DNA from: Baaleninema simplex PCC 7105
Lineage (GTDB): Bacteria > Cyanobacteriota > Cyanobacteriia > Cyanobacteriales > Geitlerinemataceae
DNA length: 64,000 nt
Reading direction: 5' to 3'
NCBI RefSeq assembly: GCF_000332355.1
Contig: NZ_KB235958.1
Location: 3,459,922-3,523,921, forward strand
Made by a program: the position numbers and the translations under genes. This document shows, piece by piece, positions 4,875 through 53,501 of the stretch (position 1 is its first letter; the number at the start of each line of letters is the position of its first letter). Under the pieces are notes generated by a model. That model saw only the letters and a program-made list of their open reading frames with translations, did no database searches and was not told the origin of the DNA.

Positions 4875-5687
4875 ATGGAATGCGATCGCGTTCCCGTTGC
4901 CCTCACGATCGCCGGATCGGATAGTGGAGGCGGTGCGGGAATTCAAGCTGATTTACGAACCTTTGCGTTTCACTGCGTTCACGGGACGAGCGCTCTGACC
5001 TGCGTGACCGCTCAGAATACTCTGGGCGTGAACCGAGTCGATGCATTACCCGCCGAAAGCGTATTAGCGCAAATTGACGCGATTGTCAAGGATATTGGCG
5101 TCGATGCGGCAAAGACGGGAATGTTATTAAACGCTGACATTATGTCGGCAGTTGCCGAGGCGATCGCTCGATCGGGCATAAATCGCCTCGTAGTCGATCC
5201 GGTGATGGTGTCGCGAACCGGGGCGCAACTGATCGACGATCGCGCGATCGCGACCCTGATCGATCTCGTGGTTCCCCAAGCCTCGATCCTCACCCCCAAC
5301 CGCTACGAAGCTCAGATTCTCGCCCAACAGGAGGTTAACAACCTCGACGACATGAAAACCGCCGCCGAACGCATTCACCGACTCGACTGTGCGGCAGTTC
5401 TCGTCAAAGGTGGGGGAATGGCCGGGGAATTGCGGGGAGTAGACGTGTGGTTTGACGGCGAACAGCTAGAAATCGTAAAAACCGAAACCGTCGATACGCC
5501 TCACACCCACGGTACTGGCTGCACCCTCTCCGCCGCGATCGCCGCCAATCTCGCCCTCGGAAAACCGCCGTTGACCGCCGTGCGCGACGCCAAAACTTAT
5601 CTAACCCACGCCTTGCATCACGCCTTAGCGATCGGTGGCGGCCAGGGGCCGGTCGGTCATTTTTTCCCGTTGCGAGAACGGGATTAA
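4875..5687 (+). CDS. thiD: Hydroxymethylpyrimidine / phosphomethylpyrimidine kinase
   Basis: ThiD phosphorylates HMP and HMP-phosphate to supply the pyrimidine half of thiamine. The 270-residue protein has the ribokinase-fold signatures of the family: TIAGSDSGGGAGIQADL near the N-terminus, VDPVMVSRTG in the middle, LTPNRYEA, and the anion-hole and catalytic motif HTHGTGCTLSAAIA near residue 213. Length is typical. No THI-box could be recognised upstream, where the 76-bp array sits directly against the start codon. Confidence 0.94.
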   Translation: MECDRVPVALTIAGSDSGGGAGIQADLRTFAFHCVHGTSALTCVTAQNTLGVNRVDALPAESVLAQIDAIVKDIGVDAAKTGMLLNADIMSAVAEAIARSGINRLVVDPVMVSRTGAQLIDDRAIATLIDLVVPQASILTPNRYEAQILAQQEVNNLDDMKTAAERIHRLDCAAVLVKGGGMAGELRGVDVWFDGEQLEIVKTETVDTPHTHGTGCTLSAAIAANLALGKPPLTAVRDAKTYLTHALHHALAIGGGQGPVGHFFPLRERD

Positions 5688-5997
5688 AGAACAAAGAAGA
5701 ACACTTCAGAGAAAAACCCCTTCTCTGATGATGGGGCGTTGGCTCGCAAACATCCGCCATGCACCTACGAGAGGGAACTCCAAGCTAAGCTACAATAGTA
5801 ATAAACGAGCAAAATGCAAAGGTTGAACGAAAGCCCGTGTTTGGTAACGTTTGATATCTCTATCATTTGATATCTCTATCATTTGATATCTCTGTAAAGC
5901 TCGAAATAAAACTTGAAGTAAAGCTCGAAATCGACCTCGTGAAGTGCTTCAAAGACGGTGGCGTTAACTGAACTGAAAAAGATGTCAAAATAGAAAT
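5688..5997 (+). other. Intergenic region with a 16-bp triple repeat
   Basis: The unit TTTGATATCTCTATCA occurs at 5850, 5866 and 5882 (period 16, third copy incomplete). Shorter repeats of the type AAGCTCGAAAT follow to about 5935. No gene or terminator is evident. The repeats lie upstream of the hydrolase gene at 5998, so a regulatory role is possible but unproven. Confidence 0.7.
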
Positions 5998-6864
5998 ATG
6001 GCACGCATCGACATCCTCGGGATCGACCACACCTACGACTTGAGCGATCCCGTTCCCAACAGTTCAGTATTAGTTTTCGTTCATGGTTGGCTGCTCAGCC
6101 GTCAGTACTGGCAACCGCTCGTCCAGCGGTTATCAAAAACCTATCAGTGTTTGTGTTACGACCTGCGCGGGTTTGGAGAATCTCAACCCAACGGCGATCG
6201 CCTGCTACAAGTCCGCGATCGCTATACCCCCGCCGCCTACGCCAAAGACTTAGAAATCTTGCTCGATCGCCTAAATTTATCTAACGTTTGGCTGGTGGGA
6301 CATTCCCTCGGTGGAACCGTTGCCCTGTGGATGGCGTACCAATTCCCCCAGCGAGTGCGGGGAGTCGTCTGTCTCAACTCCGGCGGCGGCATTTACTTAA
6401 AAGAAGAGTTCGAGCGATTTCGCACCGCTGGCGTACAAATCGTGCGCTGGCGTCCCGTTTGGTTGGCGCAGTTTCCCTTCATCGACTGGCTGTTTGCGCG
6501 AGCTGCGGTCGCCCAACCCCTCGATCGCACCTGGGGACGACAGCGAGTCCTCGATTTCGTATGCGCCCATCCCGAAGCCGCACGAGGAGCGTTATTGGAC
6601 TCGACGACAGAAGACGAAGTTCACCGTTTGCCGCAAATTGTCTCGCAACTGCAACAGCCCGTGTATTTCATCGCCGGAGCGAAAGACAGAATTATGGAAC
6701 CGAAATACGTGCGCCATCTAGCAAGTTTCCATCATTTATTCGACTGTTGCGGCGACAACACCATCGAAGTCGAAAACTGCGGCCATCTCTCGATGGTGGA
6801 ACAACCCGATTTAATCGCATCTCGTTTGAGCGCGATCGTGCGCCAGTATGAGATGAGGGAATGA
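5998..6864 (+). CDS. Alpha/beta hydrolase
   Basis: This 288-residue cytoplasmic protein has the alpha/beta hydrolase fold with a complete catalytic triad: the nucleophile elbow GHSLGG near residue 101, an acid in AGAKDRIMEP near 227, and a histidine in NCGHLSMVEQP near 262. The HGW motif near 30 supplies the oxyanion hole. It has no signal peptide. The family includes esterases, haloperoxidase-like enzymes and many unassigned members, so no substrate is proposed. It stands alone, with repeat-filled gaps on both sides. Confidence 0.85.
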   Translation: MARIDILGIDHTYDLSDPVPNSSVLVFVHGWLLSRQYWQPLVQRLSKTYQCLCYDLRGFGESQPNGDRLLQVRDRYTPAAYAKDLEILLDRLNLSNVWLVGHSLGGTVALWMAYQFPQRVRGVVCLNSGGGIYLKEEFERFRTAGVQIVRWRPVWLAQFPFIDWLFARAAVAQPLDRTWGRQRVLDFVCAHPEAARGALLDSTTEDEVHRLPQIVSQLQQPVYFIAGAKDRIMEPKYVRHLASFHHLFDCCGDNTIEVENCGHLSMVEQPDLIASRLSAIVRQYEMRE

Positions 6865-48646: not shown

Positions 48647-48852
48647 ATTGAATCGATCGCCTGTACGCGGAAGTTTTAGCGGCTGCGGGTGAAACTCCCC
48701 ATCTCAACAATCTCTAATTTCAGCAAGAACTCCGGCATCTCCGAGATATCTCGATCGTGCAGACTCCTGTTTCAGAATGTGTAATGGAGGCGGCAAACCG
48801 GGGACGACGCGGTAATAATGAGAAAAGTAGACAACTCAGGGACGTTGCAGCG

Positions 48853-49617
48853 ATGAAACGGGGAGTGTGGCAGGTTGGCTTGGCAGCGTTGTGTGGCGTG
48901 GCGATGTGGAGTGAGGCGGCGCTGGCGGGTGTGGTGCGCTGGGAGAACGCGCCACAGGTGGAGATGGCGCAGAGTGCTGACTTGCAGGAGTCGTTACGGC
49001 TGTTTGAGGAAGGAAAACAGTTTTTTAACCAAGGAACGGCTGAAGGATATCGACAGGCGATTTCGCGATTTGAGCAGGCGTTAGAATTGGCTGAACAAGC
49101 TGAAGTAACAGAAGGTATTGCTTCTATATCGGCATTTCTTGGGTCATCTCATAACCGTTTAGGCGAACGACAAACTGCTCTGAGCTACTATCAAACTGCT
49201 CTGGAAGCGTTTCGAGAGGTGGGCGATCGCGCGGGGGAAGCCACGACTCTCAACAACATCGGCTTAGTCTACCATGCCTTGGGCGACCGCAGCCAAGCCC
49301 TCAACTACTACAACCAAGCGTTGCCGATTCGGCGCGAGGTGGGCGATCGAGCCGGGGAAGCCACTACCCTCAACAACCTCGGCGCAGTTTACAATGCTTT
49401 GGGCGATCGCAGTGAAGCCCTCAACTACTACAACCAAGCGTTGCCGATTCGGCGCGAGGTGGGCGATCGAGCGGGGGAAGCCACGACTCTCACCAACATC
49501 GGCTTAGTCTACGATGCTTTGGGCAACCGCAGCGAAGCCCTCAACTACTTCGATACTTTAATCGATCCAGCTTTCGGGCGATCGATCGGCAAACGTGCCG
49601 TGTCTCAATTAAATTGA
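48853..49617 (+). pseudogene. 5-prime part of a broken TPR-CHAT gene
   Basis: The open frame has a signal peptide (MKRGVWQVGLAALCGVAMWSEAALA), then about five TPR-type units of the Kinesin-light-chain/CHAT-partner kind (GDRSEALNYYNQALPI and GEATTLNNLGAVYNALG). After SEALNYF the sequence changes abruptly to an unrelated 22-residue end. TPR arrays of this type usually continue into a CHAT protease domain, and a CHAT C-terminus without an N-terminal part lies at 51972. An earlier start at 48757 would come from dispersed-repeat DNA and is rejected. Confidence 0.7.
49217..49556 (+). repeat. 120-bp tandem repeats inside the TPR region
   Basis: Three nearly identical 120-bp units encode REVGDRAGEATTLNN plus the rest of the TPR. 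Identity at DNA level makes slippage or recombination likely here. Confidence 0.85.
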
Positions 49618-49636: not shown

Positions 49637-49697
49637 ATAGATCTACACGCCGAAATGCTATATATAGTCTGTAGACATCCTTTTGTCATGTAGATAA
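49637..49697 (+). promoter_or_regulatory. Candidate C-boxes of the restriction module
   Basis: Upstream of the controller gene lie GTCTGTAGAC (49667) and GTCATGTAGAT (49685), two related half-palindromic sites 18 bp apart, and a reverse copy ATCTACA at 49640. Controller proteins of restriction systems bind paired sites of this kind just before their own gene. Confidence 0.45.
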
Positions 49698-49742
49698 AAA
49701 TTATGTTATTCAAAAGTTATCAGAAAGACTTATTTGTACTTT

Positions 49743-49961
49743 ATGGTTAAGCGATTTTTGGGGCTTAACCGAGTTGTTGCCTCAAATTTAAAGGCTCTAA
49801 GAAAAGAACAGGGAATATCTCAAGAAGAATTGGCAGAAAAATGCGGTTTGCATAGAACATATATCGGTGCTATTGAACGGAACGAGCGTAATATAACTCT
49901 GCAAACTTTAGAAAAATTGGCTGATAGCTTGGGAGTATCAGCCCACGATTTGTTGCTGTAA
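49743..49961 (+). CDS. XRE-type controller (C) protein of the restriction module
   Basis: A 72-residue single-domain helix-turn-helix protein: NLKALRKEQGISQEELAEKCGLHRTYIGAIERNERNITLQTLEKLADSLGV in outline, a clear Cro/C1-type domain. Proteins of this size placed 7 bp before an endonuclease gene act as controller proteins, delaying endonuclease expression until the methylase has protected the host DNA. ATG at 49743 is preferred over a TTG three codons earlier. Confidence 0.85.
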   Translation: MVKRFLGLNRVVASNLKALRKEQGISQEELAEKCGLHRTYIGAIERNERNITLQTLEKLADSLGVSAHDLLL

Positions 49962-49968
49962 AATTCAG

Positions 49969-50862
49969 ATGTTTAATACCTTTAGAGAGCTTCAATATTA
50001 TTCCTATAATCGTGCGAGAAATTATTTTAGAGACAACTATATACAATTAGTAAAATTGGAAAATTTTCTATCAAAACAGGTATTTCAATTAATTCAAAAC
50101 TATATCATTCAAATCAAAGAAGATTATAACGAAGCCAGCTATCTTTACCCATTCTGGCAAAATTATCCGCCAGAAGAAAGAGGAAGACAACCTATTGGCG
50201 ATCAGTATCCATGGATTGAGGTTGGAGAGCATAGTCTTGGTGGTAAATTGTATCGACTTCTAAGCTTAAGCTTCAATATCCGTGATATAGGATTGCCAGC
50301 AGGATCTGATATAAGAGTCGTACTTTCAAGTGATAAAATTTATCAAATAACTGAAGGTTTTACCAACTCGTGTTGGCTGTTTGTTGACATAAAATCAGTT
50401 GGGCCTAGAGATGATTGGAATCATGCTGTTATGTCCCACAATCAAATTTCTGGTAGTGGACGATGGGATTCATTGTTGTCTGGAATTACCAACGATGTAA
50501 TTATAGCTTGTGGAAAAAGATCGAGTCATCCTTTCTACTGTAGCATTCCTCCAATTTATGTATTAAGTGACGGCACGGTCGTACCTGTTGTAATTATTAT
50601 TCTAAAACCTGTGTATGATATGCTTTCATTGGAATTCGACGTTAGTGATGGAGGACAACCGTTAAGTAGAATAAGTTGTGCAACAGTTCCCAATGGTCTT
50701 TTACTATGCGAACGACCAAATTACTTGTCTGAGTTTCCTGAACTATTTTTTCCCGGAAAAGACGATAAAACCAAGAACCCGCGCAAAAAACGCTGTCGAG
50801 TCAGCTTTGAAATATTAAAGCAAATAGAGTACTGGAGGTTTCGGGAAATCTTAGTAAGTTGA
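49969..50862 (+). CDS. Type II restriction endonuclease, BglI type
   Basis: The 297-residue protein resembles R.BglI (about 299 residues), which cuts at GCCNNNNNGGC. Strong family segments are EDYNEASYLYPFWQNYPP, GDQYPWIEVGE, FVDIKSVGPRDDW, SIPPIYVLSDGTVVPVV and PGKDDKTK. The active-site set is present: Asp114, Asp140 and Lys142, the last two in VDIKS, at an offset of two from the BglI residues I recall (116, 142, 144). It follows the controller by 7 bp. Its DNA is much more AT-rich than the core genes, consistent with recent transfer. Specificity is inferred from similarity only. Confidence 0.9.
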   Translation: MFNTFRELQYYSYNRARNYFRDNYIQLVKLENFLSKQVFQLIQNYIIQIKEDYNEASYLYPFWQNYPPEERGRQPIGDQYPWIEVGEHSLGGKLYRLLSLSFNIRDIGLPAGSDIRVVLSSDKIYQITEGFTNSCWLFVDIKSVGPRDDWNHAVMSHNQISGSGRWDSLLSGITNDVIIACGKRSSHPFYCSIPPIYVLSDGTVVPVVIIILKPVYDMLSLEFDVSDGGQPLSRISCATVPNGLLLCERPNYLSEFPELFFPGKDDKTKNPRKKRCRVSFEILKQIEYWRFREILVS

Positions 50863-50866
50863 AAAT

Positions 50867-51823
50867 TTACATGAAACTTAGCTCCCTTTGCAAAGGAGGA
50901 TGCTCTTGGATACGATTCCGAGCTAATTCTACATACTTAGCTTCTTTTTCGATTCCAATGTAATCCCTGTTATTCTTAATAGCAGCTATGGCTGTTGTCC
51001 CACTTCCCATAAAAGGATCTAAAACAAGATCCTGTGGATTACTGAATAAACGTATTACTCTAGATGCTAGTTCTTCGGGGAATTTTGCGGGGTGATCGCG
51101 ATTAGATCTAACACTAGGGATATGCCATACTCCTCTCGCCCCCCATTGTTTCCAATCTTCTTTTGACAGCTTATTTCTATCTATTGCATATTCACCAGGC
51201 TTCCAAAAAATATATAAATCTTCATGTTCGTCAACTGCCTTTAAAGTATTACTAGTCCATTGACTATTAACCCAAGAAGGATCTTTAATCCACACACGCT
51301 TATCGTAAAGATAAATGCCTACGTTATACGCATATTTTTCAATATAATGTCCAACTAGCTTGACTCTCGTTTGTGTTTGATATTTTCCGCCGCGAATATT
51401 ATTTCCATTTAATCGACGATCAATAGTTTGCTCACTACATCCCAATAAATCAGCTAGTTGATAGCGATTGTATTCAGGATATTTCTGCATAGCATCCAAG
51501 ACCATTTCTCGTGTCACCTTAGATTTTCTATTAGAAATATTTAAGGCTTGTATTTTAGGTATATTAGAGTCCTTAAAACATAAAATATTAGCCATGTTAA
51601 TTACCATAAATCCACCAGATTTTAGGGCATATGCGTGATTTTCAATAACATTTTTTAATAAAGATTGCCAAGAGTCAAATGTCTCTTGTGTCTCATATTC
51701 CTTTCCAACAAAGTATGGAGGCGACCAAAAGCTAAGAGCTACACTGCTCGGTTCAAGCTCAAGCATTTTGTCTTCAGCCCTACCAAGATATATATTATTT
51801 CGATTTAAGTACTTCATGGTCAA
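50867..51823 (-). CDS. N4-cytosine-type DNA methyltransferase of the BglI-type module
   Basis: This 318-residue enzyme has the catalytic SPPY at 34-37, typical of N4-cytosine methylases, and the SAM motif DPFMGSGTT at about 269-277. SPPY comes before the SAM motif, the beta-class order. Between them, residues about 103-145 form an extra helix-turn-helix-like insert (REMVLDAMQKYPEYNRYQLADLLGCSEQTIDRRLN in outline). It converges on the endonuclease with a 4-bp gap and is AT-rich like it. It should protect the sites cut by the endonuclease. Confidence 0.88.
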   Translation of the reverse strand: MTMKYLNRNNIYLGRAEDKMLELEPSSVALSFWSPPYFVGKEYETQETFDSWQSLLKNVIENHAYALKSGGFMVINMANILCFKDSNIPKIQALNISNRKSKVTREMVLDAMQKYPEYNRYQLADLLGCSEQTIDRRLNGNNIRGGKYQTQTRVKLVGHYIEKYAYNVGIYLYDKRVWIKDPSWVNSQWTSNTLKAVDEHEDLYIFWKPGEYAIDRNKLSKEDWKQWGARGVWHIPSVRSNRDHPAKFPEELASRVIRLFSNPQDLVLDPFMGSGTTAIAAIKNNRDYIGIEKEAKYVELARNRIQEHPPLQRELSFM

Positions 51824-51971
51824 TTTTCTGTAAGTTTATTTTAAATAATTTACTATATATTGTTTTTTGTGTCAAGCTTACTAACGAATAATGATTCAGA
51901 TGCTTACCTAATTAGTTCTGTTGGAATTGGGGTAAAATTAGTATCAATTTGATGCTAATTTCCAAATTCCA
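51824..51971. other. Right edge of the restriction island
   Basis: AT-rich DNA upstream of the methylase, presumably with its promoter. Composition changes to host-like near 51960, where CHAT coding sequence begins. Confidence 0.5.
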
Positions 51972-52646
51972 GGGCGGGAAAACCCAACCCTTAGCGTAAT
52001 CGGAGTTTGAGTGACCCTCGCCGACCCGGACATCGAACTGCAACGCGCCCTGCGAGACTTCAAACTGCGGGGTATCTCCCGTCTACCCCACAGTCGCACG
52101 GAAGCCGATCGACTTCTCGCCCTGGCTGACGGTGGCGAAACCAGCGTCTTCGACTTCGACGCCAATTATTCCTGGGTGACGAGCGATCGATCCAGCCGCT
52201 ATCAGTTCGTCCACTTCGCCACCCACGGTTTCGCCAACGAGGAAAACCCGGAACTCTCGGGGTTGGTGCTGTCTCTGGTGGACGCCAACGGACAACCGCA
52301 AAACGGCTTTCTGCGTCTGGGGGATATTTTCAACCTGCAACTTCCGGCGGAAATGGTGGTGTTGAGCGCCTGTCAGACGGGACTCGGCGACAACGTGCGC
52401 GGTGAAGGCATGGCGGGCTTGACAAGGGGACTGATGTATGCTGGGACGGAACGGGCGGTGTTGTCCCTGTGGAACGTCAGCGACGAGAAAACGGCGACGT
52501 TGATGGTGCGGTTTTATTAGGGAATTTGGGAGGAAGGGTTAACGCCTGTGGCGGCGTTGCGTCAGGCGCAGTTGGAGATGTGGGAAGCGGGGGAACATCC
52601 GTATTTTTGGGCGGCGTTTGGCGTTCAGGGGGAGTGGCGAGAGTGA
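51972..52646 (+). pseudogene. 3-prime part of a broken TPR-CHAT gene
   Basis: This is the C-terminal half of a CHAT (caspase-HetF-associated) protease domain. It starts GRENPTLSVIGV, has the catalytic histidine in FVHFATHGFANEE and the catalytic cysteine in VVLSACQTGLG, then GLMYAGTERAVLSLWNVSD, and ends FWAAFGVQGEWRE. Two in-frame stops interrupt it: TGA at 52008 and TAG at 52518. The second lies where relatives read FYENL or similar. No start or TPR part precedes it directly; the natural partner is the TPR piece at 48853-49560. Confidence 0.85.
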
Positions 52647-52715: not shown

Positions 52716-53057
52716 ATGTTAGATGAAACGACCTTAGAACAACGTTTAGAAAAACTCGAACAGGCGGTTTCCGAACTGCGCTTAACCCAACTCGAGCAGA
52801 CCGTTTCCGAACTACGCTTAACCCAACTCGAGCAGGCGGTTTCCGAACTGCAAAACAAAGTTGACCGTAAGCCCAATGCTAATAATTGGGTAGACAACCT
52901 GATTGGTTCGATTTCCGACGAAGAAGCTTTCCTTGAAGCGCTCGAATATGGACGTAATTTCCGAAAAACGGGAAAGTTCGAGATCGAAGAGGACAACTCT
53001 GTGAGCGAACAAGATATTCCCGGCGATATCCCTAATGAAATTGAACCCGTGATGTGA
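52716..53057 (+). CDS. Putative antitoxin with coiled-coil heptads
   Basis: A 113-residue protein with three near-identical TQLEQAVSELRL heptad units at about 8-48, a coiled coil, then an acidic tail. The gene ends 30 bp before the PIN toxin gene on the same strand, the standard place for a VapB-like antitoxin, though no DNA-binding fold is evident. The heptad units come from a 36-bp tandem duplication. Antitoxin function is inferred from position. Confidence 0.6.
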   Translation: MLDETTLEQRLEKLEQAVSELRLTQLEQTVSELRLTQLEQAVSELQNKVDRKPNANNWVDNLIGSISDEEAFLEALEYGRNFRKTGKFEIEEDNSVSEQDIPGDIPNEIEPVM

Positions 53058-53087
53058 AGCAATTGCCATTTTGGAAAACGACTCTGA

Positions 53088-53501
53088 ATGAAATATCTGC
53101 TTGACACAAACCACATCAGTGTTCTACAGCGAAAAACGGGTTTAAAATATACTTGTTTAAGGACTCGAATGAGTCAGCATTCTCCAGCAGATTTTGCTTT
53201 TTCGATCGTGAGCTTTCACGAACAGGTTCTTGGCGCTCATGCTTTGATTAATCGCAACAAGAAAAAGACTGACTTAACTCGTGGCTACGCTTTATTATGG
53301 GAAGTTCTTCAAAACTTTGCATCTGCATCGGCTATTGTTTTACCTTTGGATAATGAAGCAATTGTTATTTTTAAGGAGTTGAAACATAAACACCCTCGGG
53401 GATCTACAATGGATTTAAGAATTGCAGCGATCGCCCTATCCCGCAACTTGGTTTTGTTAACCCAAAATATCCGAGACTTTGACTATATCTCAAAATTATA
53501 A
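53088..53501 (+). CDS. PIN-domain toxin, VapC type
   Basis: A 137-residue PIN domain, the RNase fold of VapC toxins. The acidic active-site residues are visible: KYLLDTNHIS at the start, a glutamate in SFHEQVLGA, and aspartates in STMDLRIAAIALSRN and LLTQNIRDFDYI. It is preceded by the coiled-coil gene, so the pair is probably a VapBC-like module. It lies next to the restriction island. Confidence 0.88.
   Translation: MKYLLDTNHISVLQRKTGLKYTCLRTRMSQHSPADFAFSIVSFHEQVLGAHALINRNKKKTDLTRGYALLWEVLQNFASASAIVLPLDNEAIVIFKELKHKHPRGSTMDLRIAAIALSRNLVLLTQNIRDFDYISKL

Follow-up and report, generated by a model that had tools for sequence, protein, structure and literature searches.

A complete, probably active restriction-modification cassette of predicted BglI specificity in a cyanobacterial genome, and a GGCC-dependent split in the avoidance of its site

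The window, the whole stretch of 64,000 nucleotides that was analysed, was found to contain a cassette of three intact genes arranged as C > R > < M at positions 49743-51817. The gene for the controller (C) ends 7 bases upstream of that for the endonuclease (R), and the methyltransferase gene (M) lies tail to tail with R. The cassette and the features that surround it are listed below.

48757-49560, forward strand: 5' TPR-CHAT remnant (TPR repeats) to the left of the cassette, from TPR Pfam matches
49657-49700, forward strand: C-protein operator region, with the exact core TATAGTCTGTAGAC at 49663-49676
49743-49961, forward strand: controller (C) gene, 72 aa from ATG
49969-50862, forward strand: BglI-type restriction endonuclease gene (R), 297 aa
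50867-51817, reverse strand: beta-class amino-methyltransferase gene (M), 316 aa from ATG, with an SPPY motif
51847-51875, reverse strand: predicted M promoter TTGACA-N17-TAAATT (the hexamer search gave 15 promoter-like sites; shuffles average 9.0)
52020-52646, forward strand: 3' TPR-CHAT remnant (CHAT domain), E 3.2e-39, matched from profile position 99

All three genes are full-length, free of stop codons and retain their motifs. The first-pass annotation had described the module as complete, and this was found to be correct: the endonuclease (49969-50862) and the methylase (50867-51823) had been placed accurately, and the intact C gene was located outside the interval that had been assigned. 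The ORF list opens M at a TTG at 51823, and the ATG at 51817 is the likelier start. The G+C content of the cassette is 36%, versus 52% for the window, and this difference fits a foreign origin. That the host is a cyanobacterium, as had been supposed, agrees with the count of the HIP1 element (GCGATCGC), 1934 in a host sample of 1.264 Mb, and with the nearest relatives of R and M, which were found to be cyanobacterial.

The cassette interrupts what was once a single TPR-CHAT gene. Three relatives have one open frame of 1142-1166 codons that is matched by both TPR and CHAT, and the CHAT remnant in the window, which carries an in-frame TAG at 52518-52520, shows 81% identity across 168 codons to the last part of the 1142-codon frame in G387. 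A search for the empty site in 29 genomes returned matches inside single query genes only (DUF1186, Uma2, and TPR). The longest word common to both flanks, examined for a target duplication, is 8 bases and AT-rich, and was taken as chance. Just past the CHAT remnant, at 52716-53501 on the forward strand, a small ORF is followed by a PIN-domain ORF in a toxin-antitoxin-like layout; the small ORF has no Pfam match over the cut-off.

Short peptide patterns, run against GTDB contigs, picked out 12 loci, several of them in metagenome bins, which span the cyanobacteria, spirochaetes, Bacteroidota, Lentisphaerota, Fibrobacterota, Margulisiibacteriota, and Planctomycetota. The family is found in 2 of the 386 genomes drawn from the phylum, the host included. 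M is convergent behind R in 11 of the 12 loci (as a fragment in L013; in L010 the contig stops within R). C is found ahead of R in 10 of them, with none seen in L009 and L010. Two loci group with the window in the trees of R and M (support 97/96 and 96/95), those from Planktothricoides sp. SR001 (L002; R 66%, M 74%, C 77%) and the filamentous cyanobacterium ESFC-1 (L003; R 64%, M 72%, C 79%). Both share the layout and the operator variant of the window. Within 5 kb on either side, neither locus has a match to CHAT; a weak TPR match (28%, 3e-4) is found beside L002 and none beside L003. The locus in G357, from the same order as the host, also has this layout and lies outside the window group in both trees, at weak forks. 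No homologue of R was found in either the plasmid or the phage collection. The natural reading is that the cassette was transferred as a unit. In L012 (Gemmata), R is broken after about residue 178 by an insert of ~750 bases (5538-6291), part of which reads X; the ORF that it holds looks by eye like part of an ISAs1-like transposase. A comparison of this insert with Rfam gave nothing credible.

R matches the Pfam BglI model PF14562 with 452 bits over profile positions 2-286 of 286, and the E-value of 9.2e-136 leaves chance no option. The solved chain of R.BglI (1dmu) was matched with an E-value of 5.3e-79. Ten sequences went into an AlphaFold model of R (pLDDT 82), whose comparison with 1dmu gave a TM of 0.89, 47% identity and an E-value of 9.7e-32; the next fold match is SfiI (2ezv), with a TM of 0.57. 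The likeness to BglI in length and conserved blocks that had been proposed for R is borne out by the full-length Pfam match and by the identity to 1dmu. The catalytic set of BglI is E87, D116, D142, and K144, and its base contacts are D150, K266, D268, R277, and R279 (PMC548270). The residues of R that align with these are E87, D114, D140, and K142 for catalysis and D148, K264, D266, R275, and R277 for base contact. The D114/D140/K142 set named in the first-pass annotation is thus present, and every base-contact residue named in the excerpted text of PMC548270 is common to both enzymes. All of these residues are invariant in the ten-sequence alignment of R (A1), for which 9 of the 12 loci and the window were used. 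The loop of BglI at residues 63-80, with a reported minor-groove contact, corresponds to a low-confidence part of the R model, yet it is conserved in sequence.

The Pfam SfiI model also matches R (248 bits), and SfiI belongs to the same superfamily branch. SfiI is described in the excerpts of PMC548270 as a tetramer with an eight-base core. That R recognizes a narrower or different site, the SfiI-like GGCCNNNNNGGCC or another, has almost no probability in our estimate. The BglI model scores R higher, R is closer to BglI by both the Pfam and the fold scores, and R keeps D148, the counterpart of BglI D150, which SfiI is without in the same excerpts. The SfiI site is not clearly avoided in the host (6 seen versus 8.8 expected), whereas sites without any GGCC are.

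M matches PF01555 (E 1.4e-44) and the PADLOC model MTase_II PDLC03260, the latter with 452 bits over 4-306 and with the next model at 141 bits. Numbered from the ATG, the SPPY motif occupies residues 32-35 and DPFMGSGTT residues 267-275. In beta-class N4-cytosine enzymes, an SPPY-type motif IV precedes the TRD and motif I is found near the C-terminus. By this rule, the SPPY motif suggests that M is an N4-cytosine methyltransferase. The fold neighbours of the M model (pLDDT 72) are N4-cytosine and N6-adenine enzymes alike, so that the fold leaves the target base unsettled, and the best NCBIfam matches bear adenine-specific names at scores far below their cut-offs. Family models and neighbours served as the comparison for M, whose alignment (A2) covers 10 of the 12 loci. 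A conserved helix-turn-helix-like stretch at residues ~103-137, within the presumed target-recognition region (Pfam HTH only E 0.04), may serve to read the site or to regulate a promoter. M.BglI makes Gm4CCNNNNNGGC, and modification was called at 98.8% of its sites (PMC4882945). The class of M is consistent with an N4-cytosine enzyme.

C is a small helix-turn-helix protein adjoining R, and it fits the models of R-M controllers. It matches PADLOC Control_protein (5.8e-22) and Pfam HTH_3 and, in the PDB, an unnamed transcriptional regulator (3vk0, 1.4e-15), C.BclI (5e-13), the R-M controller protein 3clc (5e-11), and C.AhdI (6.6e-10). The core TATAGTCTGTAGAC upstream of C spans the left operator, the GT centre and the start of the right operator. 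It has a single match in the window even when 3 mismatches are allowed, and that match has 0 mismatches (shuffles average 1.6). A matrix from which the site at 49663 was withheld still ranks that site first in the window, though only narrowly (17.4 versus 15.2 bits). The C-box core is present with 0-2 mismatches in 10 of the 12 C upstream regions, the window included; that of L012 has a weak C-box only (7.5 bits), and the matrix search found none in that of L013. The two-operator form of the C-box is GACTtatAGTC with a central GT (PMC3115060, PMC3758141). Most of the relatives in the C-box alignment (A3, which omits L012 and L013, where C is present, and L009 and L010, where it was not seen) have ACTTATAGTC-TGTA-GACTTATAGTC or a sequence near it. 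The window and its two closest relatives have diverged from this pattern in the left outer half and in the right operator. Of the possible C-boxes that had been pointed out, the left operator core and the centre are clear, and the right operator is divergent.

An alignment of nine M upstream regions was found to contain, in most relatives, a promoter of the TTGACA-N17-TATCAT type with GATGACTTTAAGTATCAT overlapping the spacer. The predicted M promoter is kept in the window, and the C-operator-like site within it is a weak remnant. Bound to the C-box upstream of its own gene, C would activate C and R only late, and methylation would thus precede cutting. In most of the relatives aligned, C may also act on M through the site inside the M promoter. 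This arrangement resembles that of Esp1396I and AhdI in the C-family match and in the two-operator C-box form of most relatives aligned, and the site inside the M promoter of the relatives resembles the Esp1396I OM; the window differs from this type in its degenerate right operator and M-promoter operator.

The published archetype is the BglI system of Bacillus globigii ATCC 49760, whose endonuclease is 47% identical to R over the full length and has the catalytic and contact residues in common with it. The published announcement of that system lists genes for M.BglI and BglI and has a C gene for BglII only (PMC4882945), whereas the cassette in the window has its own C and C-box. The cassette is of a known kind, and its regulation sets it apart from this archetype. 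A search of the open-licence literature showed, among the matches listed, no publication that deals with a cyanobacterial BglI-type system or with a C.BglI.

A dimer of R would cut unmodified GCCNNNN^NGGC and leave 3-base 3' overhangs, and M would N4-methylate the first C of the half-site (Gm4CCNNNNNGGC) and so protect the host. Sites that escape M would be cut, and over time the host would have lost the sites protected by M alone. Excerpts of PMC4687349 report avoidance of this kind where orthodox Type II systems have resided for long, and also as a vestige of systems since lost.

The specificity GCCNNNNNGGC (GCCN5GGC) had been predicted, with a count of the motif against expectation proposed as a check, and this count was carried out. 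In the whole host genome, GCCNNNNNGGC occurs 642 times, versus 1947 and 1842 for the N8 and N11 controls, whose spacers have the same codon phase as N5 (ratio 0.339). In a sample of 1.264 Mb, 124 sites were seen versus 381 expected (z -13.2). A ranking of 640 interrupted palindromes (spacers of 3-12) places GCCNNNNNGGC second by z and fifth by ratio; many palindromes with spacers of 0-2, which lie outside this ranking, are more depleted. The nine variants with one half-site base changed are at 0.90-1.37 in the same sample. In ESFC-1, which carries the cassette, the ratio is 0.30 (rank 4 of 639) with variants at 0.79-1.44, and in the non-carrier G298 it is 0.90 (rank 123 of 626). The host is thus depleted in exactly GCCNNNNNGGC, with the one-base variants spared, and this depletion, together with the contact residues shared with BglI, supports the predicted specificity. 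A specificity proposed from homology can be confirmed, down to the single base, by the avoidance of the site in the genome itself; for a cyanobacterial R-M system, so precise a specificity is of use when DNA is moved into such strains.

The comparison was extended to 12 carriers, namely the genomes of 10 of the 12 loci (L010 and L013 omitted), the host and G357; two of these have a broken R (L011 and L012). The median ratio of the carriers is 0.337, and nine of them are below 0.37; the three without clear depletion are G407 (0.621), G403 (0.847), and G405 (1.009). The 28 relatives without the gene have a median of 0.728, and all 13 non-carriers of the same family are at a ratio of at least 0.546. 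Rank tests of carriers versus non-carriers, in which kinship is ignored, gave p values of 0.001 for all carriers and 0.0005 for the four cyanobacterial ones. A depletion that has nothing to do with the locus, and stems from codon or compositional bias or from another enzyme, might be read from the non-carriers, which are mostly below 1 as well, with three at 0.32-0.38. We consider this very improbable. The controls are matched in codon phase, with spacers of the same phase from N8 to N29 at 359-404 versus 124; GCxN5yGC other than C/G is at 0.85-1.37; and all four cyanobacterial carriers are at 0.126-0.367. Methylation would also predict the dependence on GGCC described below, of which the non-carrier G298 shows no sign (p 0.19).

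The three low non-carriers, which have no BglI homologue, are G172 (0.318, the only one lower than the host), G397 (0.339), and G008 (0.377). Their avoidance of GCCNNNNNGGC is similar in strength to that of the host and is possibly a trace of lost systems.

With a probability of roughly 0.88, the cassette is a Type IIP R-M system with BglI specificity that is complete, was acquired horizontally and is probably active; we infer the activities of its enzymes. It is improbable that the cassette is dead or limited to methylation and that the avoidance is a past trace. Avoidance can outlive a system, according to excerpts of PMC4687349, the two genomes with a broken R still avoid the site (L011 and L012; G408 0.263 and G409 0.186, the latter that of the Gemmata locus), and the cassette sits in a decayed gene; the full-length, stop-free C, R, and M with their motifs kept argue against it.

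The avoidance is not uniform. Host sites without GGCC, those in which no adjoining G or C completes this tetranucleotide, are strongly depleted (26 seen versus 287 expected), whereas those with one GGCC (92 versus 85.5) or two (6 versus 8.8) are not. The same split was found in ESFC-1 (2 versus 71.2 without GGCC and 27 versus 29.4 with one) and, with few sites, in G357 (1 versus 13.0 and 4 versus 6.4). Both classes are avoided in Planktothricoides (8 versus 56.9 without GGCC and 1 versus 17.0 with one) and in Termititenax, which is not a cyanobacterium (2 versus 54.2 and 1 versus 49.6); in G298 the counts are 65 versus 81.1 and 85 versus 85.2. These counts were made on samples of the six genomes. 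The hypothesis that both classes are equally depleted can be rejected for the host (p 2e-36), for ESFC-1 (p 8e-13) and marginally for G357 (p 0.04), and it is not rejected for Planktothricoides, Termititenax or G298.

GGm4CC methylation is common in cyanobacteria and is made in Synechocystis by M.Ssp6803II. The mark is placed on the first C of GGCC, which is the C marked by M.BglI when G precedes GCC. Since the two marks fall on the same cytosine, sites that contain GGCC would be shielded whatever M does. The likeliest explanation of the split is a putative GGCC methylase that pre-protects these sites; sites with GGCC would have survived, most likely through this separate host enzyme. The split would also arise with no second methylase if R of the host and ESFC-1 spares sites with an outer G (GGCCNNNNNGGC) and reads HGCCNNNNNGGCD, as the counts in these two genomes would fit. 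We regard this as unlikely, if less so than the other alternatives. R of Planktothricoides is identical to that of ESFC-1 at 257 of 297 residues, but its genome avoids GGCC sites too (1 versus 17.0), and the different splits of two genomes whose endonucleases share this many residues argue against enzyme specificity as the cause. R.BglI itself has no outer-G restriction as published (PMC4882945).

Returning to the putative GGCC methylase, we think it somewhat probable, as a single joint judgement, that sites under the BglI-type methylase alone have been purged, about eleven-fold, that doubly marked sites were kept, that self-cutting at incomplete methylation drives the avoidance, and that a second, independent GGCC methylase switches this pressure off. 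In ESFC-1, the purge of sites without GGCC is some thirty-fold, from few sites. If the split does reflect a second methylase, it would be direct genomic evidence for self-restriction as the driver of avoidance, phage pressure and methylase binding would not be the drivers, and strains with and without the GGCC methylase would provide a test. No description of avoidance relieved by a second methylase was found in the open-licence literature, among the matches listed, which include a part of PMC4687349.

About a fifth of the host genome was scanned by motif for the GGCC methylase, with no convincing candidate. The scan covered stretches of G000 (the host), G401, G400, and G357 and yielded two ORFs, in L042 and L088, both of G000. 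The ORF in L042 has no match in PADLOC, Pfam or the PDB and was set aside. An SPPY methylase in L178 was also rejected: its neighbour is a ScaI-type endonuclease, with which it more probably forms a pair; this methylase was missed by the scan, which is therefore not exhaustive. The pair in L178 (3805-5620, contig C3 of G000), a ScaI-family endonuclease (Pfam RE_ScaI, 245 bits) tail to tail with the SPPY methylase, is a second Type II system in the host genome.

Several other palindromes are scarce in these genomes. In the G000 sample, GACNNNNGTC is almost absent (22 seen versus 323 expected), and CAC(N3)GTG, CAC(N4)GTG, and CAC(N5)GTG were seen 31, 27, and 35 times versus 149, 175, and 124 expected (L030-L049, L059-L098, and the window). 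GACNNNNGTC and CACN5GTG are also low in G298 (36 versus 85 and 19 versus 46, respectively), so that the depletion in the host is partly not peculiar to it. The ESFC-1 sample (L119-L138) is depleted in GACN3GTC (2 versus 59), CCAN9TGG (28 versus 114), and GAAN4TTC (31 versus 155), the latter two of which are given as the XcmI and XmnI sites, respectively, in the excerpted text of PMC4081073.
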